Origin: an uncultured Prochlorococcus sp.
GTDB lineage: Bacteria > Cyanobacteriota > Cyanobacteriia > PCC-6307 > Cyanobiaceae
Assembly: GCA_902583265.1 (NCBI GenBank)
Contig: CACHVD010000006.1
Span: 1 to 55,079, forward strand
Direction of reading: 5' to 3'
Length of the DNA: 55,079 nucleotides
In this document: positions 1 through 37,980 of the stretch, piece after piece
Numbering within the stretch: position 1 is the first letter of the stretch
Layout: each line of letters starts with the position of its first letter
Notes under the pieces: model-generated
Seen by the model: only the letters and a program-made list of their open reading frames with translations
Told to the model about the DNA's origin: nothing
Database searches by the model: none
Program-made: the position numbers and the translations under genes

Positions 1-2
1 AC

Positions 3-1049
3 GTTACTCCAGAAAAAGAGGATTTTGGGCGAATGGCTGCTTCAACAACTAAGCAAGTTTTAGCCCAAAAATTAAGGGACCAACAAAGAAAAATGATCCA
101 GGAAGAATTTGCAGATTTGGAAGATCCTGTTTTAACTGCAAGAGTTATAAGATTTGAAAGGCAATCAGTCATTATGGGAGTAAGTTCTGGTATTGGCAGA
201 CCTGAAGTAGAAGCAGAACTGCCTAAGAGAGATCAATTACCAAATGATAATTACAGAGCAAATGCAACTTTCAAAGTATTTCTTAAAGAAGTTAGCGAAA
301 TAGCCAGAAAAGGTCCTCAACTTTTTGTTAGTAGAGCAAATGCTGGTTTAGTAGTTTATTTATTTGAAAATGAAGTACCGGAAATTCAAGAGGGTACTGT
401 AAAAATTGTTGCTGTTTCAAGAGAAGCAAACCCTCCATCAAGAGCAGTTGGGCCAAGAACTAAAGTAGCTGTTGATAGTGTCGAACAAGAAGTTGACCCT
501 GTAGGTGCATGTATTGGAGCGAGAGGAGCAAGGATTCAACAGGTAGTTAATGAATTGAGGGGAGAAAAAATTGATGTTATTAAATGGTCATCAGATCCAA
601 TACAGTATATTTTAAACTCTTTAAGTCCTGCGAAAGTAGATCTAGTAAGACTAGTGGACCCAGCAGGGCAACATGCACATGTTTTAGTGCCTCCTGATCA
701 ATTGAGTCTTGCAATCGGGAGAGAAGGCCAAAATGTGAGACTTGCCGCAAGATTAACTGGTTGGAAGATTGATGTTAAAAACTCACATGAATATGATCAG
801 GAGGCAGAAGATGCTGCAGTCTCTGAATTAATTATTCAAAGAGAAGATGAAGAGAATCTTCAGAGAGAGGCTGAGCTAAGATTAGAAGCAGAACAAGCTG
901 AGCGCGCTGCGGAAGATGCAAGATTAAGAGAGCTTTATCCGCTTCCTGAAGATGATCAAGAATATGAAGAAGAACTATACGAGGATGTTGCCTTTTCAGA
1001 TAATGATCAAGATAGTGAAATATCATCTAGAGAGGAAGGAAAAAGGTGA
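3..1049 (+). CDS. nusA: Transcription termination/antitermination factor NusA (5' end outside window)
   Basis: NusA binds RNA polymerase and nascent RNA and modulates pausing, termination and antitermination. The frame is open from the first complete codon at base 3, so the N-terminal RNAP-binding domain lies before the window; the ATG at 33 is internal. What remains is the S1 region followed by the two KH domains, visible as the stretch with CIGARGARIQQV and the later LAIGREGQNVRLAARLTG. The C-terminal tail is highly acidic and Glu/Ala-rich, probably helical (about residues 250-335 of the visible part), and replaces the acidic repeats of proteobacterial NusA. The stop overlaps the next gene in a TGATG arrangement, giving the usual nusA-ylxR-infB operon. 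Confidence 0.97.
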   Translation, partial: VTPEKEDFGRMAASTTKQVLAQKLRDQQRKMIQEEFADLEDPVLTARVIRFERQSVIMGVSSGIGRPEVEAELPKRDQLPNDNYRANATFKVFLKEVSEIARKGPQLFVSRANAGLVVYLFENEVPEIQEGTVKIVAVSREANPPSRAVGPRTKVAVDSVEQEVDPVGACIGARGARIQQVVNELRGEKIDVIKWSSDPIQYILNSLSPAKVDLVRLVDPAGQHAHVLVPPDQLSLAIGREGQNVRLAARLTGWKIDVKNSHEYDQEAEDAAVSELIIQREDEENLQREAELRLEAEQAERAAEDARLRELYPLPEDDQEYEEELYEDVAFSDNDQDSEISSREEGKR

Positions 1050-1327
1050 TGCAACAAGTGCCTGTTATGCGTATGTGCATTTCATGTAGAAAAACATATG
1101 ATAGAAAAGATCTTTTAAAGATTACCAAAGATCATAATGAAGGCATTATGTTTCAAAAGGGAATGGGGAGATCAGCTTACATTTGCAATTCTGAAAAATG
1201 TTACTCTGATTCCAAGATAAAAAAAAAGCTTCAAAAAGCTTTAAAAACATGTTTAGAACCTGAATTTATTGAAATTTTTGAAAAAGAAATTACAAGCTAC
1301 AATGACCATTCCAATAAAGGAATATAA
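1049..1327 (+). CDS. rnpM: RNase P modulator RnpM / YlxR-family RNA-binding protein (DUF448)
   Basis: Small basic protein of the YlxR (DUF448) family; in Bacillus its homologue binds and modulates RNase P RNA, and the family is thought to be RNA-binding. Family signatures are the early RMCISCRK cysteine pair and the GMGRSAYIC motif in the middle, followed by a Lys-rich helix. I prefer the ATG at 1049, which overlaps the nusA stop as TGATG and implies translational coupling; a GTG at 1046 in the same frame would add one residue. Its position between nusA and infB is the classic order, which supports the assignment. Confidence 0.9.
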   Translation: MQQVPVMRMCISCRKTYDRKDLLKITKDHNEGIMFQKGMGRSAYICNSEKCYSDSKIKKKLQKALKTCLEPEFIEIFEKEITSYNDHSNKGI

Positions 1328-1369
1328 TTAAAATAAATCCTCTTTTGAAAAGAGTACAAATCAGATTAA

Positions 1370-1579
1370 ATGACTATCAGCGATAAAATCAGAATTTACG
1401 AACTTTCCAGAGATCTAAATCTGGAAAATAAAGATATTTTGGATGCAGCTCAAAAACTTTCAATTTCAGTAAAAAGCCATAGCAGCTCTATAAGTAAAGA
1501 AGACGCAAAAAAAATAACAAATCTTATTAACAAAAAAAATTCAGATAAAAAGATACTTTCAATACTGAATGACCAGTAG
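1370..1579 (+). pseudogene. infB: infB 5' fragment: N-terminal IF2 domain, cut off by a 55-bp foreign block
   Basis: The ATG at 1370 opens a frame beginning [17 protein letters not shown], which is the first IF2 N-terminal helical subdomain at the start of cyanobacterial IF2. The family-like sequence runs to about residue 64, where the repeated block (1561-1615) begins, and reading stops at TAG 1577-1579. Family-like IF2 linker sequence resumes right after the block (DNQKQNKED at 1615-1641) in a different frame and continues into the main infB ORF. The two frames overlap only at about 1573-1576, with no A/T-rich slippery heptamer there, so programmed frameshifting is not evident. Either infB is truly split in this strain or the block is an assembly artefact. 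The fragment alone could not act as an initiation factor. Confidence 0.8.
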
Positions 1580-1615
1580 ATTCTAAAATTTTCTTTGGTA
1601 CTAGCTTTAATAAAG
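1561..1615 (+). repeat. 55-bp perfect direct repeat, copy 1 (inside infB)
   Basis: Bases 1561-1615 are identical to 11369-11423, with mismatches immediately outside at both ends (1560 c against t; 1616 a against g). At the second site the sequence is part of an intact coding gene read on the minus strand, so that site is probably the source and this one the recipient. Here it introduces TAG at 1577 and shifts the frame. Confidence 0.97.
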
Positions 1616-1707
1616 ATAATCAAAAACAAAACAAAGAAGATGTATCTCCTCTTATCTCATCTTTAAAAGGTGAACCAATTAAAGAAAATTCAAACAAAAA
1701 GCCATTA

Positions 1708-4700
1708 TTGATAAAGCCTCTTAATAAACCCAATATTATTAATAGTTCACAATCTCAAGCAAACCTTAAGAATCGAAATATTAAGAGTAAGCCTTTACAA
1801 AATTTCAACCAGGATAAAAAAACTTTCCTAAATAGCACAACCCCACCTATAAAAAGTCCTGCAAAACCACCTATTCAACTAATTGCAAAGCCTAAGAATA
1901 TAAAAAATAATGTTAAATCTAATGAATCTTCAAAGAACACCTACAATTTAGGGGACAAAAGAAAACTATCAAACAAACTTGATCAAAATACAAACAAACC
2001 TAAATTAAAAAATAATAAATTAAAAACCCCTGAGCTCGTAGGAGCACCGATAAGAAGAGACGACTCTCTTAAGCAAAATAATAAGCAAAATATTTCCTTT
2101 AAGCAGAGTAACTCCAATAGACCTGGTGCACCCAATAGACCTGGTACACCCAATAGACCTGGTGCACCCAATAGACCTGGTGCGTCCAATAATAAGCCTG
2201 GATTGAGAAACAAATCATCGGATAAAGGCAGATCTGGCTCATTTAATAGACAAGTCAATCCCAATAAATCGTTTGCTGGCAGCAGCCCTGGATTGAGAAA
2301 CCAACAATCAGATCAAAGGGGGTCTGGCTCCTTTAATAGACAATTAAATTCCAATAGACCAGGTGCTCCGGGTAGATCTGGCATGCCAAATAGGCCTAGT
2401 TCTAAATTTAATGAACAGAAGTCCTCGGGAATTAGGAAACCCGTGTCACCTAATGAACTTTTGCAACTTCAAAAAACTAATATATCGGATAAGGACAAAA
2501 AAGGTATAAAAATTGACGAAAAACAAAAAATAGAGTCACCTAAACATAAGGTGAAAGCTCCTAACAGTAGGCTAAGCACTGCCCCTAGTTCCAAAAAAAC
2601 GCCCCATAGAACATTTTCGAATAGTTCAAAAAAACCAGGAAAAACTGACTGGGACGATAGTGCTAAATTAGAAGCATTAAGAAATAAGAATCCCCAGAAA
2701 CAACGACAGAAAGTTCATATTATTGGAGAAAATGATGATTCTTTAACATCTGAGACTAGTGGGTATTCAGGTGAAAAAATTTCAATATTATCAGCTAGTT
2801 TGGCACGTCCAAAGAAAGAAAAGTCTGATGATAATAAATCTCAAAAATCTATAAAACAATTTAAGAAGAAGAAAAAAGAGACTACTAGGCAAAGGCAGAA
2901 AAGAAGAGCTTTGGAATTAAAGGCTGCTAAGGAGGCTAAACAAATAAGGCCTGAAATGATAATAGTCCCCGAAGATAATTTAACAGTTCAAGAATTAGCT
3001 GATAAATTAAGTCTTGAAAGTTCTGAAATAATCAAATCTCTTTTTTTTAAAGGAATAACGGCAACAGTTACTCAATCACTTGACTTAACAACTATCGAAA
3101 CAGTAGCAGAAGAATTTGGGGTTCCTGTTTTGCAGGATGATATCCAAGAAGCTGCTGAGAAAACAGTAGACATGATTGAGTCAGATGATATGGATAGTCT
3201 AATAAAAAGGCCACCTGTTATCACAGTAATGGGTCATGTAGATCATGGTAAAACTAGTCTTTTAGATTCCATTAGAGAATCCAGAGTAGCTTCAGGAGAA
3301 GCAGGAGGAATTACTCAACATATAGGAGCTTATCAAGTTGAATTTGAACATGAATCTAAAAAGAAAAAATTAACTTTTCTTGATACCCCTGGACATGAAG
3401 CCTTTACAGCAATGAGAGCAAGAGGTACAAAAGTCACTGACGTAGCTGTTCTTGTGGTAGCTGCAGATGATGGTTGCAGACCCCAAACGATTGAGGCCAT
3501 AAGCCATGCAAGAGCAGCAAAGGTCCCAATTGTTGTTGCAATAAATAAAATTGATAAGGAAGGAGCTTCTCCAGAGAGAGTAAAGCAAGAACTATCAGAA
3601 AAAGACTTAATTGCTGAAGATTGGGGAGGAGATACTGTGATGGTGCCAGTGAGTGCAATCAAAAAACAAAATATCGAAAAATTGCTTGAAATGATTTTGT
3701 TAGTGTCTGAAGTTGAAGATCTACAAGCTAACCCTTACAGATCGGCAAAAGGTACGGTCATTGAAGCTCACTTAGATAAAGCCAAAGGGCCTGTAGCTAC
3801 TTTGTTAGTACAAAATGGTACATTAAAATCTGGAGATGTTTTAGCTGCAGGTTCAGTCCTTGGAAAAATTAGAGCAATGGTTGATGAACATGGCAATAGA
3901 ATCAAAGAAGCAGGTCCTTCCTTCCCAGTAGAAGCATTAGGATTCAGTGAAGTACCTACAGCAGGCGATGAATTTGAAGTCTACTCTGATGAAAAAACTG
4001 CTCGAGCTATTGTTGGAGATAGAGCCACAGATGCTAGGGCGACAAAATTAGCTCAGCAAATGGCTTCCAGAAGAGTCAGCTTATCCTCCTTATCAAATCA
4101 AGCAAATGATGGTGAATTAAAAGAGTTAAACTTAATTCTTAAAGCTGATGTTCAAGGTAGTGTTGAAGCGATATTGGGATCACTTGAACAATTACCGAAA
4201 AATGAAGTTCAAGTTAGAGTTCTACTATCTGCTCCTGGAGAAATAACTGAGACAGATATAGACCTTGCAGCTGCATCAGGATCAGTAATCATTGGGTTTA
4301 ACACCTCATTAGCATCTGGAGCAAAAAGAGCAGCTGATGCTAATGATGTTGATATAAGAGAATATGAAGTAATCTATAAACTCCTTGAAGATATTCAGTT
4401 GGCTATGGAAGGTCTTCTTGAACCGGATCTTGTAGAAGAAGCATTAGGTAAAGCCGAAGTTCGAGCAACTTTCGCAGTTGGTAAAGGAGCTATTGCAGGT
4501 TGTTATATTCAAACTGGCAAATTACAACGCAATTGTTCTCTTAGAGTAATTAGATCAGATAAGGTAATTTTTGAAGGTAATTTAGACTCTCTAAAAAGGT
4601 CTAAAGATGATGTGAAAGAAGTAAATACAGGATTTGAATGTGGAGTTGGCTGTGATAAATTCTCGTCTTGGAATGAAGGGGACATAATCGAAGCATTCAA

Positions 4701-4734
4701 ATTTGTTACTCAAAAGAGGACATTAACTAAATAA
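1708..4734 (+). CDS. infB: Translation initiation factor IF-2, main ORF (5' part displaced by inserted block)
   Basis: IF-2 is the GTPase that brings fMet-tRNA to the 30S subunit and promotes 50S joining. The 1008-codon ORF contains a long Lys/Asn/Pro/Gly-rich disordered linker (about 1-400), a second IF2_N subdomain ([16 protein letters not shown] region), the GTPase domain with GHVDHGKT (about 509-516), DTPGHE (about 558), NKID (about 613) and SAI, then the beta-barrel, IF2 domain 3 and the C-terminal fMet-tRNA-binding domain. The listed start is a TTG; the frame is open back to 1573 but offers only ATT/ATC codons there. The natural start is almost certainly the ATG at 1370, separated by the 55-bp block and a frame change. 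If the break is real, a shortened IF2 starting inside the linker, comparable to the internal-start forms of E. coli IF2, would keep all essential domains. Confidence 0.93.
2116..2187 (+). repeat. Four tandem 18-bp repeats in the infB linker (NRPGAP units)
   Basis: Four consecutive 18-bp units, starting at 2116, 2134, 2152 and 2170, encode [18 protein letters not shown] and NRPGAS. Units one and three are identical; the others differ by one to a few bases. A partial echo ([15 protein letters not shown]) lies near 2356-2400. Such repeats in the disordered IF2 linker probably vary in number between strains through slippage. Confidence 0.95.
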
Positions 4735-4759
4735 CAAAATAACTAAATAATTTTTTAAC

Positions 4760-4999
4760 TTATTGATCTTTATTCCGGTCAAGGAATAATAAAGTAGGAA
4801 AAATCATACAAGCACCAATTTGTATAAGGAGATTGTTTTGCTGTAATTCACTCCCACTTGCAATTTTTGAAAGCATTATTACAAGTCCCAAAAATGCCGA
4901 ACCACTAAAAGCTATCCATAATGTTTTCCTTAATCCTTTAAAAGGAGCTTGAGATTCCTTTAATAGTTTCTTTTTTAATTCAGGATCTATTTTTGACAT
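4760..4999 (-). CDS. DUF3493 family small membrane protein (LPA1/Rep27-like)
   Basis: About 79 residues with two hydrophobic segments (LWIAFSGSAFLGLVIML and the LLIQIGACMIFPTLLFL region) joined by a short polar loop, and a basic amphipathic N-terminus with PELKKKLLKESQAPFKGLR. This resembles the cyanobacterial DUF3493 family, whose plastid relatives (LPA1/Rep27) assist photosystem II D1 assembly; a PSII role here is only inferred from the family. I chose the ATG at 4999; a TTG at 5011 would add MKEL. It is convergent with infB and 55 bp from the tRNA-Thr gene. Confidence 0.7.
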   Translation of the reverse strand: MSKIDPELKKKLLKESQAPFKGLRKTLWIAFSGSAFLGLVIMLSKIASGSELQQNNLLIQIGACMIFPTLLFLDRNKDQ

Positions 5000-5054
5000 T
5001 AATTCTTTCAATTATAAAATGAATTCTATATGAAAATAACAATATTTTTACATT

Positions 5055-5126
5055 GCCGGTATAGCTCAGCGGTAGAGCAACTGTCTCGTAAACAGTAGGT
5101 CGTTGGTTCAATTCCAATTATCGGCA
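5055..5126 (+). tRNA. trnT-CGT: tRNA-Thr (anticodon CGT)
   Basis: A complete 72-nt cloverleaf without encoded CCA. The acceptor stem GCCGGTA pairs with TATCGGC (one G-U), the D-arm carries AGCTCAGCGGTAGAGC, the anticodon stem-loop is ACTGT-CTCGTAA-ACAGT with CGT at 5087-5089, and the T-loop is GGTTCAATTCC. The isolated + strand gene follows a - strand gene and precedes a 276-bp AT-rich spacer. CGT decodes ACG, a rare codon in so AT-rich a genome. Confidence 0.95.
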
Positions 5127-5402
5127 TTTCAAAAGCGTTTAAAAAAAAGAATTATTTTTAGAGTTTCGCAACTAAAAATTATTTAAAGATTTTTTCATCG
5201 CTTCAGATAATCTTTTTTGAATAAGAATTTACATTTTTTGATAAAAGTTTATCTCTTTCCAGCTAAATGGATTAACAAATCAAACTAATAAAATAACATT
5301 CTTTATCTAGTTAAAAATATTTATTATTTGAAAATTTTTATTAGTACTTTTTAAATATTTTTAATTACGCCAAAATAGTAATAAAGTAGTTAGATTCTTA
5401 GT

Positions 5403-7049
5403 GTGGCAAATTTATATGAATTTCGTAGCATGAATTTAAATTTTGGTTTCACAAAAATAAATAAAAAGAAGTTCGATAAGAAGAACTATGGGAAAATTCT
5501 TATTGTAAGACTTCCATGCAATCCAATATTTCCTATAGGACCTATTTATTTAGCAGATCATATTCATAAATGTTTCCCAAATATTGAACAACAATTTATT
5601 GATTTAGCAATAATTCCATCTAATAAAATTACAAAATATTTAACTAGAAAAATTGATCAATTTAGACCTCACCTAATAATTTTTTCATGGAGGGATATAC
5701 AAATTTATGCACCTGTCGATGGCAGAAGCGGAAATCCCCTACAAAACTCTTTTGAGGTTTTTTACTCAAAAAATATCCTTAAAAAAATTAGAGGTTCTTG
5801 GGGAGGATTAAAATTAATTGCATCTCATTATGGAGAAATATATAGAAATACCTCTTTAGTTAAGATGGGGCTCAAAAGAGCACAAAAATACAACAAAGAT
5901 GTAAAAATAATTTTGGGAGGTGGGGCTGTTAGTGTTTTTTATGAACAATTAGGAAATCTTCTTCCAAAAGGAACTGTTATTTCTGTTGGAGAGGGAGAAA
6001 ATCTCATAGAGAAAATCATTAGGGGAGATTCTACAGATGAAGAAAGATGTTACATTGCTGGGGAAAAACCTCGGAATAAATTAATACATGAACAACCTTC
6101 AGGCACTGTTAAAACTGCCTGCAACTATAAATACATTAAATCAATATGGCCTGAATTTAATTGGTATATAGATGGTGGAGATTATTATGTAGGGGTGCAA
6201 ACAAAAAGAGGTTGTCCTCATAATTGTTGTTTCTGTGTTTATACAGTTGTGGAAGGAAAGCAGGTTCGAGTTAATCCTGTTAAAGAAGTAATAAAGGAAA
6301 TGAAGCAATTATATGATCTTGGAGTTAGAGGATTTTGGTTTACAGACGCGCAGTTTATTCCAGCTAAGAAACACATCGAAGATGCAAAGACACTTTTGCA
6401 AGCTATAAAGGATCAAGGTTGGGACGATATTAATTGGGCCGCATACATTAGAGCAGATAATATTGATGCTGAGCTAGCTCAGCTTATGGTTGATACAGGT
6501 ATGAGCTATTTTGAAATCGGTATCACTTCAGGCTCTCAAGAACTTGTTAGGAAAATGAGATTAGCGTATGACCTTAAAACTGTATTAAATAATTGCAGAA
6601 TGCTAGTCCAATCAGGTTTCAAGAACCATGTTTCAGTCAATTATTCATTTAATGTTTTTGATGAAACGCCAAGCACCATTAGACAAACAATTGCCTACCA
6701 TAGAGAATTAGAAAATATTTTTGGTAAAGGCTTAGTTGATCCTGCTATATTCTTTATAGGCTTGCAGCCTCACACACTTCTTGAGCAGTACGCCTTAGAA
6801 CATAAAATTTTGAAGCCTAATTATAATCCAATGAGCATGATGCCATGGACAGCGCGAAAACTTCTTTGGAATCCAGGCTCATTAGGCGAAAAACTTGGTC
6901 AGGTTTGTTTAGAAGCTTTTGATAATCAAGAAGATGAATTCGGTAAAACAGTTATCAACATTCTTGAGAGAGAATATGGAAAGTCTTCTTTAAAAGAATC
7001 CTTAAAAGTCCGCCCGTTATCAGAAAGAAAACTAGCTCATTCTAAATAA
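5403..7049 (+). CDS. B12-binding-type radical SAM protein (PSII high-light acclimation family)
   Basis: The 548-residue protein has an N-terminal Rossmann-like, cobalamin-binding-type region (about 25-240, with VRLPCNPIFPIGPIYLA and ILGGGAVSVF) and a radical SAM core. The cluster motif is RGCPHNCCFC with cysteines at about 271, 275 and 278 (CxxxCxxC), followed by TDAQF and GITSGS, which fit the SAM-binding barrel. It resembles the conserved cyanobacterial family that annotation pipelines call photosystem II high light acclimation radical SAM protein; the substrate is unknown to me. The GTG start at 5403 gives MANLYEFRS; an ATG at 5430 is an alternative. It stands alone between an AT-rich spacer and convergent clpS. 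Confidence 0.8.
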   Translation: MANLYEFRSMNLNFGFTKINKKKFDKKNYGKILIVRLPCNPIFPIGPIYLADHIHKCFPNIEQQFIDLAIIPSNKITKYLTRKIDQFRPHLIIFSWRDIQIYAPVDGRSGNPLQNSFEVFYSKNILKKIRGSWGGLKLIASHYGEIYRNTSLVKMGLKRAQKYNKDVKIILGGGAVSVFYEQLGNLLPKGTVISVGEGENLIEKIIRGDSTDEERCYIAGEKPRNKLIHEQPSGTVKTACNYKYIKSIWPEFNWYIDGGDYYVGVQTKRGCPHNCCFCVYTVVEGKQVRVNPVKEVIKEMKQLYDLGVRGFWFTDAQFIPAKKHIEDAKTLLQAIKDQGWDDINWAAYIRADNIDAELAQLMVDTGMSYFEIGITSGSQELVRKMRLAYDLKTVLNNCRMLVQSGFKNHVSVNYSFNVFDETPSTIRQTIAYHRELENIFGKGLVDPAIFFIGLQPHTLLEQYALEHKILKPNYNPMSMMPWTARKLLWNPGSLGEKLGQVCLEAFDNQEDEFGKTVINILEREYGKSSLKESLKVRPLSERKLAHSK

Positions 7050-10721: not shown

Positions 10722-11295
10722 AGTGTATGAAGTTGGAATGGATGAAGTTGGGAGGGGAGCAGTTTTTGGCCCAGTTTTCTCAGCAGTTGTATTATTAACT
10801 GAAAAAAATAAATTTATCCTAAAAAAATTTGGAGTAATGGATAGTAAAAAATTAACTCCCAAAAAAAGAAACTTCCTTTTTCCAAAAATTTTGTCCCTTT
10901 CTACAGATTATGGAATTGGACAATCCTCTGTTAGAGAAATAGATAAGTTCGGCATCAGAGTTGCAACTGAACTTTCAATGATAAGAGCTATAAAAAAATT
11001 AAAAGAAAAACCATCTGAATTATTAATTGATGGACCATTGTTGTTAAGGCCATGGAAGGGAATTCAAAAAAATATAGTGTCGGGAGACTCGAAATTTACT
11101 TCAATATCTTCAGCGAGCATAGTTGCAAAAGTATCTCGCGATAATCTTATGGAAAGTTTAGAAAAAAAATTCTCAGGATACTTTATTTTTAAAAATAAAG
11201 GATATGGTACTAAAGAACATCTTTCAAGTATCAAAGAAAATGGAATAACTAATCTTCATAGGAAAAGTTTTTTAACGAAATCAAATCTTATTTGA
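10678..11295 (+). CDS. rnhB: Ribonuclease HII
   Basis: RNase HII cleaves RNA in RNA/DNA hybrids and removes single ribonucleotides. The 205-residue protein has the catalytic [13 protein letters not shown] motif (acidic residues at about D22 and E23), [15 protein letters not shown] and [10 protein letters not shown], the usual active-site blocks. The ATG at 10678 lies 44 bp inside rne in another frame; the catalytic motif begins only at residue 20 and no later in-frame ATG precedes it, so the overlap is probably real and implies translational coupling. Its 3' end overlaps the convergent DUF1997 gene by 15 bp. Confidence 0.95.
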
Positions 11296-11799
11296 TTCAC
11301 ACCACTCCAAAAAATCTTTAACTAACTGCTGTTGAACTCTTGTCTTTATTCCCAATAAAATCCCATTTAATACTGAATGACCAGTAGATTCTAAAATTTT
11401 CTTTGGTACTAGCTTTAATAAAGGAGGTTGGCTCACAGATACTCCTAGAAGCGCCTCCCCTTCTAATCCAATATCAGTTGCTTCCAAATTCGCTTTCAAA
11501 ATAAGATTGAAGTCATCTATCATCCCCAAACCATCCAATGTACTTTCAAGAGCACTCATTTTTAAAATTCCTTCTTTATTTTCTACCGCAATTGAAACAA
11601 CAGGGTTAATATCTAATTGGAAAACCTTAAAACTTGTTACTGTATACTTGTACTTACCTTCCCCTTCAGGTAATAATTTTTTTGAGTCTAGCATTGCTCC
11701 AACAACTCTTTCTTCTTCCAAAAGATACTTAGAAAGATATTCTTTATTTCTTGTTACAGAAAGCTTTAGTTTCTGTTTAGCATCAAAAGACAACAGCAT
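11281..11799 (-). CDS. DUF1997 family protein
   Basis: A 172-residue protein matching the cyanobacterial/plastid DUF1997 family, whose fold is thought to resemble START/coenzyme-Q-binding lipid-transfer domains; the function is not established. It begins [15 protein letters not shown] and has an alternating hydrophobic, beta-rich pattern with no signal peptide or membrane segment, ending in a helix with [14 protein letters not shown]. The ORF is intact here, although a 55-bp part of it (11369-11423) reappears inside infB. The gene is tail-to-tail with rnhB (15-bp overlap) and divergent from pheA with a 52-bp gap. Confidence 0.75.
11369..11423 (+). repeat. 55-bp perfect direct repeat, copy 2 (inside the DUF1997 gene)
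   Basis: Identical to 1561-1615 and in the same orientation on the + strand. Here the sequence belongs to an uninterrupted gene read on the minus strand and encodes roughly [18 protein letters not shown] in that gene, so it is the likely original. Confidence 0.97.
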
Positions 11800-11851: not shown

Positions 11852-12697
11852 ATGCGCAAACAAGTTGCATATTTAGGTCCTAAAGGGACATACGCAGAAA
11901 AAGCAGCTCATATTTTATCAAAGCTTGCCAATTTTCATTCACCTATATTTGTACCATGTAAAGGGTTACATTCGGTCATTAAATCAATAGCGTTCAACAA
12001 TTGTGATGCTGCTGTAGTTCCTATTGAAAATTCTGTAGAAGGCGGAGTTACAGCCACCTTAGATGCCCTTTGGAAATTTCCTGATATTTTTATAAATAAA
12101 GCAATTGTTTTACCTATAAGACATGCATTAATAAGTGATGGAGAACTTTCAATTATCTCAGAAGTACTATCTCATCCTCAAGCATTAGCTCAATGTTCAG
12201 AATGGTTATCTGAAAATCTTCCTAATGCGATCCCTCTTCCAACAAATTCAACATCAGAGGCAGTCAATATGGTTAAAGGAAGTAAATTTAGAGCAGCTAT
12301 CGGTTCGAAATCTTTAATTAAAATTGAAGGACTTAAAGAATTAGCGTTTCCTATAAATGACGTCCCTGGTAATTGCACAAGATTTGTCTTATTGAGCAAA
12401 GAATCAAATTTTGATTCAGCAAATATTGCCAGTTTTGCTTTCTCATTAATCTCTAATAAACCTGGTGCTTTGCTAGAAGCAATTAATCATATTGCAAATT
12501 TTGGATTTAATATGAGTAAAATTGAGTCTAGACCTTCTAAGAGAGAGTTAGGCGAATATATAATTTATATTGATTTAGAAATAAATAATCAAAATAATAT
12601 TGCAAATCTTCGCGAATTAAAAAATCATTTAGAACCTCTATGCAATAACTTCGTTGATTTTGGAAATTATTTTTCTGAAAAAATTGATCTAAATTAA
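11852..12697 (+). CDS. pheA: Prephenate dehydratase
   Basis: Converts prephenate to phenylpyruvate in phenylalanine synthesis. The 281-residue protein starts VAYLGPKGTYAEKAA, then has VVPIENSVEGGVTATLD and the catalytic-site GNCTRFVLLS, all typical of the dehydratase domain (about 1-190), followed by an ACT domain with GALLEAINHIANFGFNM and KIESRPSK, the phenylalanine-binding signature used for feedback inhibition. There is no chorismate mutase domain, so it is the monofunctional form. It ends 1 bp before the convergent methyltransferase gene. Confidence 0.96.
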   Translation: MRKQVAYLGPKGTYAEKAAHILSKLANFHSPIFVPCKGLHSVIKSIAFNNCDAAVVPIENSVEGGVTATLDALWKFPDIFINKAIVLPIRHALISDGELSIISEVLSHPQALAQCSEWLSENLPNAIPLPTNSTSEAVNMVKGSKFRAAIGSKSLIKIEGLKELAFPINDVPGNCTRFVLLSKESNFDSANIASFAFSLISNKPGALLEAINHIANFGFNMSKIESRPSKRELGEYIIYIDLEINNQNNIANLRELKNHLEPLCNNFVDFGNYFSEKIDLN

Positions 12698-12698
12698 T

Positions 12699-13634
12699 TT
12701 ACCCTCTGCATTTATATACTCCAAACTCCATTAAACCTTTTCCAAATGCCCAATTCATGAGAAGTATAGTTGGGACTTCTCTAATTGACTTTATCAATGC
12801 TAAGGGTCCCAGAGACAAAATTGCAAATGGTCTTCGTATGCCTTCAATAATGGAGTCGAACCATGAAGGGTTTGTATAAGTATTCCAATTTTCAGAAATA
12901 ACTCTTCCTGCACTATTTTTATTAGTCTTCAGAATATTACCGAAATCATTAATGCTAATAAAATTAGGATGTACCCACTGTTCAAGTAATTGTTTAAGTA
13001 CTAACCTCTCAATAAAAGATGGAGGGTATGCCTTAAGATCTCTTGAGTTCCAATCAGCCAATGCCAAATACCCGCCAGGTCTCAAAGTTCTTAACATTTC
13101 ATCTGCAAACTTAGCTTTATCTTTCATGTGTGCACCAGCCTCAACACTCCAAACAGCATCAAATACTCCATCATCAAATTTTAAATTCAATGCATCCATA
13201 ACTTGGAAGCTGCAATTTAGTCCTGCAGGAGTAAGTTCTCTAGCTCTTTTTACTTGAGCAGGACTAATTGTTATTCCAGTAACATTAAAACCATAATATT
13301 TTGCAAGAATCCTTGAACTTCCTCCTATTCCACAGCCTACATCCAGGATTCTGGAACCTTTTGGCAATTTATCTAAATCACTCCATTTGACTAACTCATG
13401 TACAAACTGGACTTTAGCCTCTCTAAAATCAATATTTTTCTTTCTGGAGGGATAAAAACCTAAGTGGATATGCTCTCCCCACAACCTCTCAAGTAATTTA
13501 TCTTGGGTCCAAGCATCATATGCAGATGCTACTGTACCAGAAGAAATAAATTTTCTGGCGTTAATTCTCCAAATAATAGATAAAATTAAAATAAATAAAA
13601 CTAGTAAAAAAAAAGGTATAAATAATTCAAACAT
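12699..13634 (-). CDS. 2-methyl-6-phytyl/solanyl-benzoquinone methyltransferase (MPBQ/MSBQ MT)
   Basis: A SAM-dependent methyltransferase for ring methylation in plastoquinone and tocopherol synthesis. The 311-residue protein has an N-terminal hydrophobic anchor (FIPFFLLVLFILILSIIW), then AYDAWTQDKLLERLWGEHIH, the SAM-binding ILDVGCGIGGSSRILAKYYG, and a C-terminal KSIREVPTILLMNWAFG. The order and wording of these blocks match my memory of Synechocystis Sll0418, the characterised MPBQ methyltransferase. A gamma-tocopherol methyltransferase role is the main alternative, because the two are related; the membrane anchor and the C-terminal block favour MPBQ/MSBQ. The downstream neighbour starts right after it in a likely two-gene unit with the Lon-domain gene. 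Confidence 0.85.
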   Translation of the reverse strand: MFELFIPFFLLVLFILILSIIWRINARKFISSGTVASAYDAWTQDKLLERLWGEHIHLGFYPSRKKNIDFREAKVQFVHELVKWSDLDKLPKGSRILDVGCGIGGSSRILAKYYGFNVTGITISPAQVKRARELTPAGLNCSFQVMDALNLKFDDGVFDAVWSVEAGAHMKDKAKFADEMLRTLRPGGYLALADWNSRDLKAYPPSFIERLVLKQLLEQWVHPNFISINDFGNILKTNKNSAGRVISENWNTYTNPSWFDSIIEGIRRPFAILSLGPLALIKSIREVPTILLMNWAFGKGLMEFGVYKCRG

Positions 13635-14291
13635 TTAATTTTCTTTTATATCAGGAAGACTTTCTTTCAAAGCAGTTCTTGCTGCCAGTTGTTTTCTTGT
13701 ATGATCAAGCATTTCATATTCTCTTTGCAAACGAGTATAAGTATTTCTTTCCTCTAGAAGTCTTTGCTGCTCCTCTGCAACAGGACCGCCCAAATGTGAA
13801 CCAATCCAAAATGATAATTCCATTGGATTCTTTGGTAATTTATCGGGAAGATTTTTCTTAGTATTTGTAAGCTTACCTGTTAGATTAATAACATCCTTCA
13901 GTGCTTCTGTAACTGAATCTTTTAGAGAATCTAATTTTTGAAGGTTTTCAATATTATCATCATTAACCCAGCTTACCATCGCCGAACAAAATGGAGTTGA
14001 GCGAATGATTTCTAAAACTTGAAATCTTTGCTGTCCGAGAGTGATGATGTTACTTCTTCCATCATCTGAAGTTTGATGTTTTATTATTTGGGCGCAACAT
14101 CCAATATTGGCCATACTTTTAGTATTTGGATCCCACTTTATAACTCCAAACATAGAATCGGTCTCGAGTACAGATTGAAGCATAATTCTGTATCTCGATT
14201 CAAAGATATGTAAAGGTAATACTTCTTGAGGAAAAAGGACTACCTCTGGCAAAGGAAATAAAGGTAATTCCCTTACTGAGAGCTCTCCCAT
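13635..14291 (-). CDS. Lon N-terminal (substrate-binding) domain protein
   Basis: A stand-alone Lon N-domain protein (LonN/PUA-like fold) without ATPase or protease domains. The start ELPLFPLPEVVLFPQEVLPL and HIFESRYRIML are the family signature; the C-terminal third is helical and charged. Proteins of this type are conserved in cyanobacteria, with an unproven role possibly in substrate recognition. At 218 residues it is the usual length for the short form. It lies directly upstream of, and abuts, the methyltransferase gene, and 55 bp downstream of the rpsJ end on the same strand. Confidence 0.85.
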   Translation of the reverse strand: MGELSVRELPLFPLPEVVLFPQEVLPLHIFESRYRIMLQSVLETDSMFGVIKWDPNTKSMANIGCCAQIIKHQTSDDGRSNIITLGQQRFQVLEIIRSTPFCSAMVSWVNDDNIENLQKLDSLKDSVTEALKDVINLTGKLTNTKKNLPDKLPKNPMELSFWIGSHLGGPVAEEQQRLLEERNTYTRLQREYEMLDHTRKQLAARTALKESLPDIKEN

Positions 14292-14346
14292 TTAAACCTC
14301 ATTTATATTTATTATTTTAGACAATTAATGTCTTTTTCGGGATTTA

Positions 14347-14667
14347 TTAAAGTTTAACTTCTATATCAACACCACTAGGAAGATCCAACTTCATTAAAGC
14401 ATCAATTGTTTTTGCAGAAGGACTATAGATATCGATTATTCTTCGATGAGTTCTCGTCTCAAAATGCTCTCTAGAATCTTTATCGACATGTGGCGACCTT
14501 AAAACGCAATAGATTTTCCTTTTTGTAGGTAAAGGTATTGGACCAATTGCTGAGGCTGAAGTAGTATCAGCAGTTTGGATTATTTTATCGCAAGACAAAT
14601 CAAGCATTCTTCTATCAAAAGCTTTAAGTCTTATTCTTATTTTTTGTTGTGCAATTGATGCAGTCAT
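14347..14667 (-). CDS. rpsJ: 30S ribosomal protein S10
   Basis: Small-subunit protein that also acts as NusE in antitermination. The 106-residue sequence has [15 protein letters not shown] near the start, [19 protein letters not shown] in the middle and [16 protein letters not shown]. In this lineage rpsJ sits at the end of the str operon, after tuf, rather than at the head of the S10 cluster, which begins elsewhere in the window with rplD-rplW. Confidence 0.97.
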
Positions 14668-14683
14668 AATTAAAAATTAACTT

Positions 14684-14717
14684 AAATGGAGGGCTATTGA
14701 GTAAAAACAGCCCATTT
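14684..14717 (-). terminator. Imperfect hairpin in the tuf-rpsJ spacer (attenuator or terminator candidate)
   Basis: Arms AAATGG-(AGG)-GCT and AGC-CCATTT pair around a loop with one asymmetric bulge. It lies just past tuf, upstream of rpsJ. On the minus strand a moderately T-rich run follows, not a clean U-tract, so it may only dampen read-through from tuf into rpsJ. Confidence 0.3.
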
Positions 14718-14767
14718 CCATCTACTTATATTAAATGATTAAGGTTAAATTCTTAAAATTAAATATA

Positions 14768-15967
14768 TTATTTGAGGATTTTAGAAACAACTCCAGCACC
14801 AATAGTACGTCCACCTTCACGGATCGCAAATCGCATACCTTGTTCAATAGCTACTGGACAAATTAATTCTCCAGTCATCTTGATTCTGTCTCCTGGCATA
14901 ACCATTTCAACATTAGAACCATCATCAGAGGTAAATGCTGTTATTTGACCTGTCACATCAGTTGTTCTGATGTAAAACTGTGGTCTATATCCTGCGAAGA
15001 AAGGAGTATGTCTGCCGCCTTCCTCTTTTTTTAAAACATAAACTTCTCCTTCAAATTGAGTATGGGGAGTTATTGACCCTTTCTTAACAAGAACCATTCC
15101 TCTCTCAATATCCTCTTTCTGAACACCACGTAAAAGTAATCCAACATTGTCTCCAGCCATACCTTCATCAAGAAGTTTACGGAACATTTCAACTCCAGTA
15201 ACTGTTGTTACTCTTGTGTCTCTTATTCCAACTATTTCAACTTCTTCTCCAACTTTAACTTTACCTCTCTCAATTCTTCCGGTAGCAACAGTTCCTCTAC
15301 CAGTGATTGAGAAAACATCTTCAACAGCCATCAAGAATGGTTTATCAACTTCTCTTTCTGGTTCAGGAATGTTAGCATCGACTGCTTTCATTAATTCTTC
15401 GATCTTTGATTCCCAAGTAGAATCACCTTCGAGAGCTTTTAAACCTGAAACTTGAACGATAGGAATATCATCTCCAGGGAAGTCATAACTATCTAGTAGT
15501 TCTCTTATTTCCATTTCAACGAGTTCAATAATTTCTTCATCATCGACCATATCGCACTTATTGAGAGCAACTACTAGGGCAGGAACTCCAACCTGTTTAG
15601 CTAAAAGAATATGCTCTTTTGTTTGAGCCATAGGACCATCTGTAGCTGCGCAAACAAGAATTGCTCCATCCATCTGGGCGGCCCCTGTGATCATATTTTT
15701 GACATAATCAGCATGTCCTGGGCAATCTACATGAGCATAATGTCTGCCTTCAGTTTCATATTCGACGTGAGCGGTATTAATAGTAATGCCACGCTCTCTT
15801 TCTTCAGGAGCACCATCAATGTCTCCATAGTCTTGAGCTTGAGCTTGACCTTTTTTGGCTAATACATTAGTAATAGCAGCAGTTAGTGTTGTTTTTCCAT
15901 GATCAACATGGCCAATAGTACCTATGTTGACATGTGGTTTGTTCCTTTCGAACTTCTCGCGAGCCAT
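14768..15967 (-). CDS. tuf: Translation elongation factor Tu
   Basis: GTPase that carries aminoacyl-tRNA to the ribosome. The 399-residue protein contains [10 protein letters not shown] (P-loop), the switch [35 protein letters not shown] and SGLKAL, then the two beta-barrel domains ending in [15 protein letters not shown]. Length and all GTPase motifs are as expected. It lies 45 bp downstream of fusA on the same strand. Only one copy is seen in the window. Confidence 0.98.
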
Positions 15968-16012
15968 TTTGAATTAAAGAATCGAGGGTTTAAGAGTGTT
16001 TTAGTTTAGAGA

Positions 16013-18088
16013 TCAGGAGTTGCCCTGATTCTTGGAAATGATAGCTTCAGCAACATTACGAGGAACTTCCTCATAATTTGCGAACTCCATTGAAAATATA
16101 CCCCGACCTTGAGTCATTGATCGGAGTTGAGTGGCATAACCGAACATTTCGGCTAAGGGCACTTTGGCCTGTACCTTAGACAATCCATCATCAACAGATT
16201 GTCCTTCTACTTGACCTCTTCTAGAAGAGAGATCACCAATTACAGATCCAAGAAAGTCGTCAGGACTTTCGACCTCGACTTTCATCATAGGCTCTAAAAG
16301 GACAGGATTGCATTTTTTAACCCCGTCTTTAAAAGCCATGGAACCTGCAATTTTGAAGGCCATTTCAGATGAGTCTACATCGTGGAATGAACCATCGACT
16401 AGTGTTACTTTTACATCAATGAGTGGATAACCGGCAAGAACACCAGATTCACAAGTTTCTTTCATACCATTAGATGCTGGACCGATGTACTCTTTTGGTA
16501 CAGCTCCGCCAACAATTTTGTTAACAAATTCAAAACCTTTTCCTACTTCAGCAGGTTCCATTTCAATAATTACGTGACCATATTGACCTTTTCCTCCAGT
16601 CTGTCTTGCATATTTACCTTCACCTTTAGAACTAGACCTAATAGTTTCTCTATATGAAACCTGAGGAGCTCCTATATTTGCTTCAACTTTAAATTCCCTT
16701 AGCATTCTGTCAACAAGGATCTCTAAGTGCAACTCACCCATACCTGCAATAACCGTCTGATTTGTCTCAGGATCTGTACTTACTCTGAAGGTTGGATCCT
16801 CTTCAGATAAAGCAGTTAAGGCTTTTGATAGTTTTTCCATATCGCCTTTGGTTTTTGGCTCAACCGCCACCGAGATAACTGGTTCAGGGATAAACAATGT
16901 CTCCAAAACTATTGGATCTTCTGTGTTACATAAGGTGTCGCCAGTAGTTGTGTTCTTGAGACCTAATACAGCTCCTAAATCCCCAGCCCTCAATTCATCA
17001 ACTTCCTCTCTTTCATCAGCTTTAAGAATCACTAATCTAGAAATTCTTTCTTTAGCATCTTTAGTAGAATTCATTACATAACTTCCTTTGGAAAGAACAC
17101 CTGAATACATTCTTACAAAAGTTAATTTTCCATATGGATCTGACATCACTTTGAAAGCTAAAGCACTGAAAGGAGCATTATCATCTGAAGGTCTAACATC
17201 TTCTTTACCACTTGGTAAAACACCTTGTATTGGTTTCACATCAACTGGTGCTGGCAAGTAATCAACTACAGCATCTAATACGAGTTGGACACCTTTATTC
17301 TTAAAAGCTGAGCCACAAAGTACAGGAACCAATCCATGTTTTAAAACCCCTTCCCTGATACCTTTTTTAAGTTGTTCTTCAGATAATTCTCCTGTATCAA
17401 GGAATATTTCAATTAACTTCTCATCATTTTCTGCAACACTTTCCATTAACTTATTTCTCCACTCAGCAGCCTCTTCTTGCATTTCAGAAGGAATTGGTGC
17501 TTCTTCAATATCAGTGCCTAAGTCATTTTTATAAAGATAAGCTTTGTTAGCTACTAAATCAATGATGCCAGTAAGATCTCCCTCAGCTCCAATTGGTAGC
17601 TGAATAGGAAGGGCATTTGCCTTAAGTCGATCTTTAATCTGCTTGTTAACTTTTAAGAAATCTGCGCCGGTTCTGTCCATTTTGTTTACAAAAACCATTC
17701 TAGGAACTGAGTATCTATCAGCTTGACGCCAAACTGTCTCAGATTGAGGCTGAACTCCACCAACTGCGCAAAATACAGCTATAACTCCATCCAAAACTCT
17801 CATTGATCTTTCCACTTCAATAGTAAAGTCAACGTGTCCCGGTGTATCAATAATATTAATTCTATGGTCTTGCCAACTTGTAGATATTGCAGCAGCTGTA
17901 ATAGTTATTCCTCTTTCTCTTTCTTGAGCCATCCAATCCGTTACGGCGGCACCATCATGAACCTCTCCTATCTTGTGAACCACACCTGAATAGAACAAGA
18001 TTCTCTCTGTCGTTGTTGTCTTCCCTGCATCAATGTGAGCGGCTATACCTATGTTCCTTACTCGCTCTAGGGGAAAGTCGCGTGCCAA
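16013..18088 (-). CDS. fusA: Translation elongation factor G
   Basis: GTPase that drives translocation on the ribosome. I place the start at a TTG (18088), giving the canonical [20 protein letters not shown] and 691 residues; an upstream in-frame ATG at 18130 would add 14 residues not usual for EF-G. Motifs: [32 protein letters not shown], then domains II-V with a C-terminal [13 protein letters not shown]. It lies between rpsG and tuf in the str operon. Confidence 0.96.
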
Positions 18089-37794: not shown

Positions 37795-37830
37795 AACAAT
37801 TATTAATTAAAAAATTTTCTAAATAAATCA

Positions 37831-37919
37831 CGGAGAGGGAGGGATTCGAACCCTCGACAAAAGTTACCTCCTGTAACTCCTTAGCAGGGAGCCGCTTTCA
37901 ACCACTCAGCCACCTCTCC
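37831..37919 (-). tRNA. trnS-GCT: tRNA-Ser (anticodon GCT)
   Basis: An 89-nt class II tRNA on the minus strand with a long variable arm. The acceptor stem GGAGAGG pairs with CCTCTCC, the anticodon loop is CTGCTAA (GCT), and the T-arm is GAGGGTTCGAATCCCTC. Discriminator base G, no encoded CCA. Confidence 0.95.
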
Positions 37920-37980
37920 AGTTCTTATACAATATCAATTTTTATGCTAACATTCAAAATTTTTTATTTAATCGAAATGT

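Follow-up and report, generated by a model that had tools for sequence, protein, structure and literature searches.

The infB gene in the window, i.e. the whole stretch of 55,079 nucleotides analysed here, is interrupted by a 55-nt block (positions 1561-1615) that is an exact copy, in direct orientation, of positions 11369-11423, with a start-to-start distance of 9,808 bp. We conclude that this observation is correct and that its cause is likely to be amplification or assembly chimerism. The block is therefore most likely a chimera that was not part of the genome of the cell, and infB is probably intact in the living organism.

An exact copy of a distant gene segment splits infB in the draft

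The sequences that flank the two copies diverge immediately (C/T on the left, A/G on the right). The sequence-only reading had claimed a perfect 55-bp copy in the same orientation, 9.8 kb away and with mismatched flanks, which is confirmed. BLAST reports the pair as 58 nt at 98%, as two extra bases agree past the left mismatch. A 38-nt core of the block was present twice in none of 100 shuffles, and repeats reached at most 21 nt in 40 versions of the window generated with a third-order Markov model; from this we conclude that chance cannot explain a repeat of 55 nt. The features concerned are the following.

1370..1579, plus strand: 5' part of infB (69 codons), which encodes the first IF2_N domain (PF04760, E 2e-13) and ends at the TAG from the block
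1561..1615, plus strand: recipient block, exact copy of 11369-11423 within the infB linker
1564-1611, 48 nt: surely foreign part of the block; 1561-1563 (AAT) and 1612-1615 (AAAG) also stand in the uninterrupted infB of the closest relatives
1616..4734, plus strand: rest of infB in another frame (in frame from 1618), with linker, second IF2_N domain, G domain and following domains (TIGR00487)
11281..11799, minus strand: donor gene, intact, encoding a DUF1997 protein of 172 aa (PF09366, E 3.8e-33)
11369..11423, plus strand: donor site, at the ancestral position, inside the DUF1997 gene

Starting from the ATG at 1370, infB terminates after 69 codons at a TAG (1577-1579). For the remaining part, the ORF prediction begins at a TTG at 1708, in-frame ATGs are located at 2383 and 2956, and the frame is open to 4734. 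Indeed, the match to the IF-2 model TIGR00487 reaches 825.9 bits and covers model positions 6-586 of 587, and IF2 is complete from the linker to the C-terminus after the block. The domains that characterize a bacterial IF2 in one open frame (IF2_N, G domain and following domains) are thus all there, split over two frames. This agrees with the sequence-only reading, according to which the block brings an in-frame TAG and a frameshift and IF2 resumes after it.

The infB site in related genomes

The stretch containing the infB start was matched in 136 of the 151 genomes searched, our own included, and the best 29 of these 136 matching genomes (own not counted) were read as relatives after their loci had been oriented. 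The block is absent from the infB site in all 29, which have an ordinary linker there; most of them encode ILSINKPSIKK or ILSIKKPSIKK at the site of the block. The infB frame is open through the stretch compared in 28 of the 29 relatives, and the remaining one (L017, G121 C92) was kept among those counted despite its frame stop. Its infB has a stop in codon 230 that follows eight consecutive C, which is likely a single-base error in another draft.

In comparison with the nearest relatives, 19 bases have given way to 48 foreign ones, or to 55 when the shared edges are counted, with a net gain of 29 nt, by which the infB frame is shifted. The shared edges are AAT (3 nt) on the left and AAAG (4 nt) on the right, and both occur in the ordinary infB of these relatives. 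It had been guessed before that about 24 bp of linker were replaced, and that the edges shared AATA and AAAG with the copy; the alignment with relatives gives 19 bp with the shared edge bases set aside, and it retains AAAG on the right and shortens the left edge to AAT. As judged from this comparison, the block is a two-junction templated patch inside infB. The linker peptide removed by the patch is well kept in the relatives.

Origin and direction of the copied segment

The 38-nt core was found with up to 3 mismatches in 155 of the 266 genomes of the genus, our own included, and not at this threshold in the other 111, many of the 266 being incomplete. One site each is present in 154 of the 265 other genomes, and two sites are present in our own genome alone; a second core site with up to 3 mismatches is absent from the 265 other genomes, many of which are incomplete drafts. 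In G087 and G020, the single donor site follows the infB site at a downstream distance of about 10 kb, which matches the arrangement in our own genome. The single site in 154 other genomes and its conserved position in G087 and G020 indicate that 11369-11423 is the ancestral location and that 1561-1615 is derived. Two genomes with two matches each, G020 and G225, were suspected to be second cases, and these matches turned out to be the donor site and ordinary infB flanks.

The donor site was rightly placed inside an intact gene by the sequence-only reading, namely the gene of the DUF1997 protein on the minus strand, and the copied segment is an arbitrary slice of this coding gene. No matches spanning the block junctions were found in other genomes, the best match outside our own genome being the donor site of G087. 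The exact junction and the exact left flank gave 0 matches each in the genome contigs searched, from which our own record was possibly left out, and the infB stretch had no match in the phage collection. The presence of two identical copies in one contig would also be expected of a natural repeat or mobile sequence residing at both sites, but the segment occurs as a single copy in each of the 154 other genomes, is not found at infB in any of the 29 relatives, and shows neither element ends nor a target duplication around what is a piece of coding sequence, which leaves this explanation with next to no probability.

Exact repeats in the genome and in the genus

Exact repeats of at least 26 nt were sought in 795,066 bases of our own genome, in 797,752 bases of ten other drafts, in 320,000 bases of eight more drafts and in four single-contig genomes (400,000 bases). 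The samples amounted to 40-80 kb per other draft and 40-100 kb overall per other genome, a size at which pairs located far apart are mostly missed. Our own genome contains six such repeats, i.e. the block, near-tandem pairs of 42, 32, 26 and 26 nt, and an inverted pair of 29 nt, which is the next non-tandem exact repeat after the block in these 795,066 bases. The block is the sole dispersed repeat of its size found, but not the sole repeat above 43 nt. The right end of contig C5 (G000, L119), which was read apart, carries exact copies in near-tandem arrangement, up to 49 nt long and with a spacing of 123 bp. A 23-nt part of them is found again, in inverted orientation, at the left end of C15 (L046); the assembly may have broken here at an array of repeats.

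With palindromes set aside, the dispersed exact repeats in the ten other drafts (797,752 bases) were confined to two genomes: G087 has two pairs, of 1,138 bp and 26 nt, and G079 has inverted arms of 5,656 bp. None of at least 26 nt were found in the 320,000 bases of the eight further drafts. The two identical 1,138-bp copies in G087 (C2, L054:14060-16487) are located 1,290 bp apart from start to start, and each covers what we take from the translation to be a psbA-like gene; this pair is a recent or homogenised tandem duplication. Contig C25 of G079 (L087, 17,752 bp) was examined because infB matched twice on it. Its arms (1-5656 and 12097-17752), each of which contains the infB start, are exact inverted copies of one another, a shape that would fit a chimera formed in amplification or assembly.

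All of the 46 exact repeats in the four single-contig genomes (400,000 bases) are near-tandem. Two of them, in G015 and G041, are exactly 55 nt long, from which it follows that 55 is not special as a number. A second patch of the kind seen in infB was found neither in the 795 kb of our own genome nor in the 1.12 Mb from 18 other drafts. The block is thus exceptional, and a recurring class of 55-nt duplications to which it could belong was not found.

Character of the assembly

The window is contig C6 of a draft of 1,039,904 bases in 30 contigs, with an estimated completeness of 64%, a contamination of 0 and a smallest contig of 2,222 bp. Judging from these assembly statistics, the draft looks like a single-cell amplified genome. 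By its gene content and AT-richness, and by the size of 1.6-1.8 Mb of near-complete genomes in the genus, we take the source to be Prochlorococcus. When the 60 ends of the 30 contigs were compared, different contigs shared at most 23 nt at their ends, which fits trimmed ends; untrimmed assembler output, which would be recognized by shared contig ends, is not supported. In the workflow described for single cells of Prochlorococcus (PMC6122165, PMC5519541), contigs above 2,000 bp are kept, ends are trimmed and SPAdes is run with --sc; the contig sizes of the draft fit this cut-off. For benchmark cultures the workflow averaged 1.5 misassemblies per 100 kb, with the P. marinus cells tending toward the fewest. 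If the workflow average applied, a 55-kb contig would carry about 0.8 misassemblies, not all of which would be of the present kind.

Weighing chimera formation against mutation in the cell

The most likely course of events is a chimera formed during single-cell whole-genome amplification, in which a growing strand would leave infB at the shared AAT, continue for 48-55 bases on the DUF1997 gene, 9.8 kb distant, and re-enter infB at the shared AAAG after skipping 19 bases, whereupon the assembler would take the chimeric molecule as the consensus. We infer both the single-cell origin and that the switch took place in the tube rather than inside the cell. Several results favour an artefact: the draft resembles a single-cell genome and a second case is missing among the 266 genomes; the identity extends over 55 nt, with two sites only in our own genome and an ordinary infB in 29 of 29 relatives; the patch deletes a well-kept linker peptide; the next non-tandem repeat in the 795 kb of our own genome reaches only 29 nt; and the inverted contig over infB in G079 provides another chimera-like draft of the genus. 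According to Lasken and Stockwell 2007 (PMC1855051), chimeras from multiple-displacement amplification (MDA) that join segments less than 10 kb apart have shared bases at the join in more than 90% of cases, and the block, with its AAT and AAAG edges and a distance of 9,808 bp, has the same properties. Like these chimeras, it lacks a natural counterpart in relatives. However, the described MDA chimeras are mostly inverted joins of two segments, and the block has two junctions and a direct orientation: 406 of the 475 chimeras in the E. coli amplification study (85%) were inverted, which is a tendency and no requirement, 69 were direct, and only 11 were both direct and joined segments less than 10 kb apart (same source). 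The need for two direct-orientation switches weakens the artefact reading, as do the lack of a second patch in the 795 kb of our own genome and the 1.12 Mb of 18 drafts and the fact that the IF2 core is intact while a truncated IF2 can be viable. By our rough estimate, edges of 3 and 4 nt that are shared in DNA this rich in AT speak only weakly for microhomology. We found no sequence feature that tells an event in the tube from an event in the cell.

The same anatomy, a clean two-edge replacement with shared bases, is expected of template switching within the cell, and a recent mutation in the cell or its clone, by which replication switched template at the short shared bases and brought 48-55 nt from the DUF1997 gene into infB, is accordingly the alternative, which we consider rather unlikely. 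IF2 would then restart downstream, the candidate starts being ATG 2383 (783 aa) and ATG 2956 (592 aa), or be made as two polypeptides, the 69-aa first IF2_N domain and the remainder. The completeness of the IF2 core according to TIGR00487 speaks for this, and so do methionines at the positions of ATG 2383 and ATG 2956 in G087 and G020, which may represent starts. The essentiality of IF2 had been put forward earlier; IF2 is essential, but the argument is weaker than stated. In PMC3334882 and PMC11838494, E. coli is reported to have shorter IF2 forms and to tolerate N-terminal truncation with cold sensitivity. At 37 C its cells are said to do without the N-terminal disordered region, and an IF2 from which the N-terminal third of the residues is missing keeps them viable when in excess. 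Since E. coli tolerates this loss, essentiality alone does not exclude a real event. Against a mutation stand the lack of a second site, with at most 3 mismatches, among the 265 other genomes, many of them incomplete drafts, the lack of the block at infB in the 29 relatives, the loss of a well-kept part of the linker and the lower cost of an artefact given this kind of draft. That a wild cell carries a real, recent templated replacement splitting infB and lives on an IF2 restarted in the disordered linker, possibly together with a separate 69-residue N-domain protein, seems improbable to us.

A pure product of assembly was also taken into account. SPAdes uses a default final k of 55. A repeat whose length equals k forms just one node of the de Bruijn graph, and the whole patch can then be assembled even if no read spans it. 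Two unrelated chimeric reads could therefore have been spliced via the shared 55-mer without any molecule that held the whole patch; we know of no assembler step that inserts a k-mer without reads joining both sides. The repeat length of exactly 55 nt and the use of SPAdes --sc in the single-cell workflow mentioned above are in line with such a splice. It would need two chimeric reads whose breakpoints are separated by exactly 55 nt in the donor and by 19 nt in infB, dispersed 55-nt repeats do not recur, and near-tandem ones of this length exist in two single-contig genomes; we consider this course of events highly improbable. The sequence-only reading had argued from the equality of 55 bp and an assembly k-mer size, for which we see no support, as 0 further dispersed 55-nt repeats were present in 795 kb of our own genome and in the 1.12 Mb sampled from 18 drafts, where distant pairs are mostly missed. 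The match of 55 with k is suggestive only. Of the two options that this reading had left side by side, a true templated insertion or a chimera, the comparison with relatives bears out a templated replacement with shared edges, and we judge the artefact to be the likelier cause. Two of the arguments given proved weaker than stated.

Relation to known systems

Replication template switching of the MMBIR/FoSTeS type resembles the block in its short copied patch, shared edges, unchanged donor and the loss of few target bases. The papers listed on this mechanism mostly concern eukaryotes, and an origin of the block in the cell is only a candidate. A product from a downstream start would, if expressed, be shorter by the N-terminal domain and some of the linker, and in this it would resemble the isoforms IF2-1/2/3 of E. 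coli; the short isoforms of E. coli, however, accompany full-length IF2 from an intact gene, whereas full-length IF2 could not be made here.

Draft genomes can thus hold clean and convincing, but probably false, breaks in an essential gene, and dispersed exact repeats above 30 nt warrant suspicion, since they were rare in the samples examined. If the break were real, it would represent a natural test of what the IF2 N-terminus is needed for in a streamlined cyanobacterium.

Further features of the linker and the window

Near window position 1735, the infB linker is shortened in frame by 48 nt compared to the nearest relatives, between two AATAARCC motifs, which looks like ordinary linker variation. 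Further downstream (2096-2386), the linker contains tandem 18-nt units that encode PNRPGA-like repeats. The window also includes a tRNA-Thr (cgt) at 5054-5127 on the plus strand and a tRNA-Ser (gct) at 37830-37920 on the minus strand.
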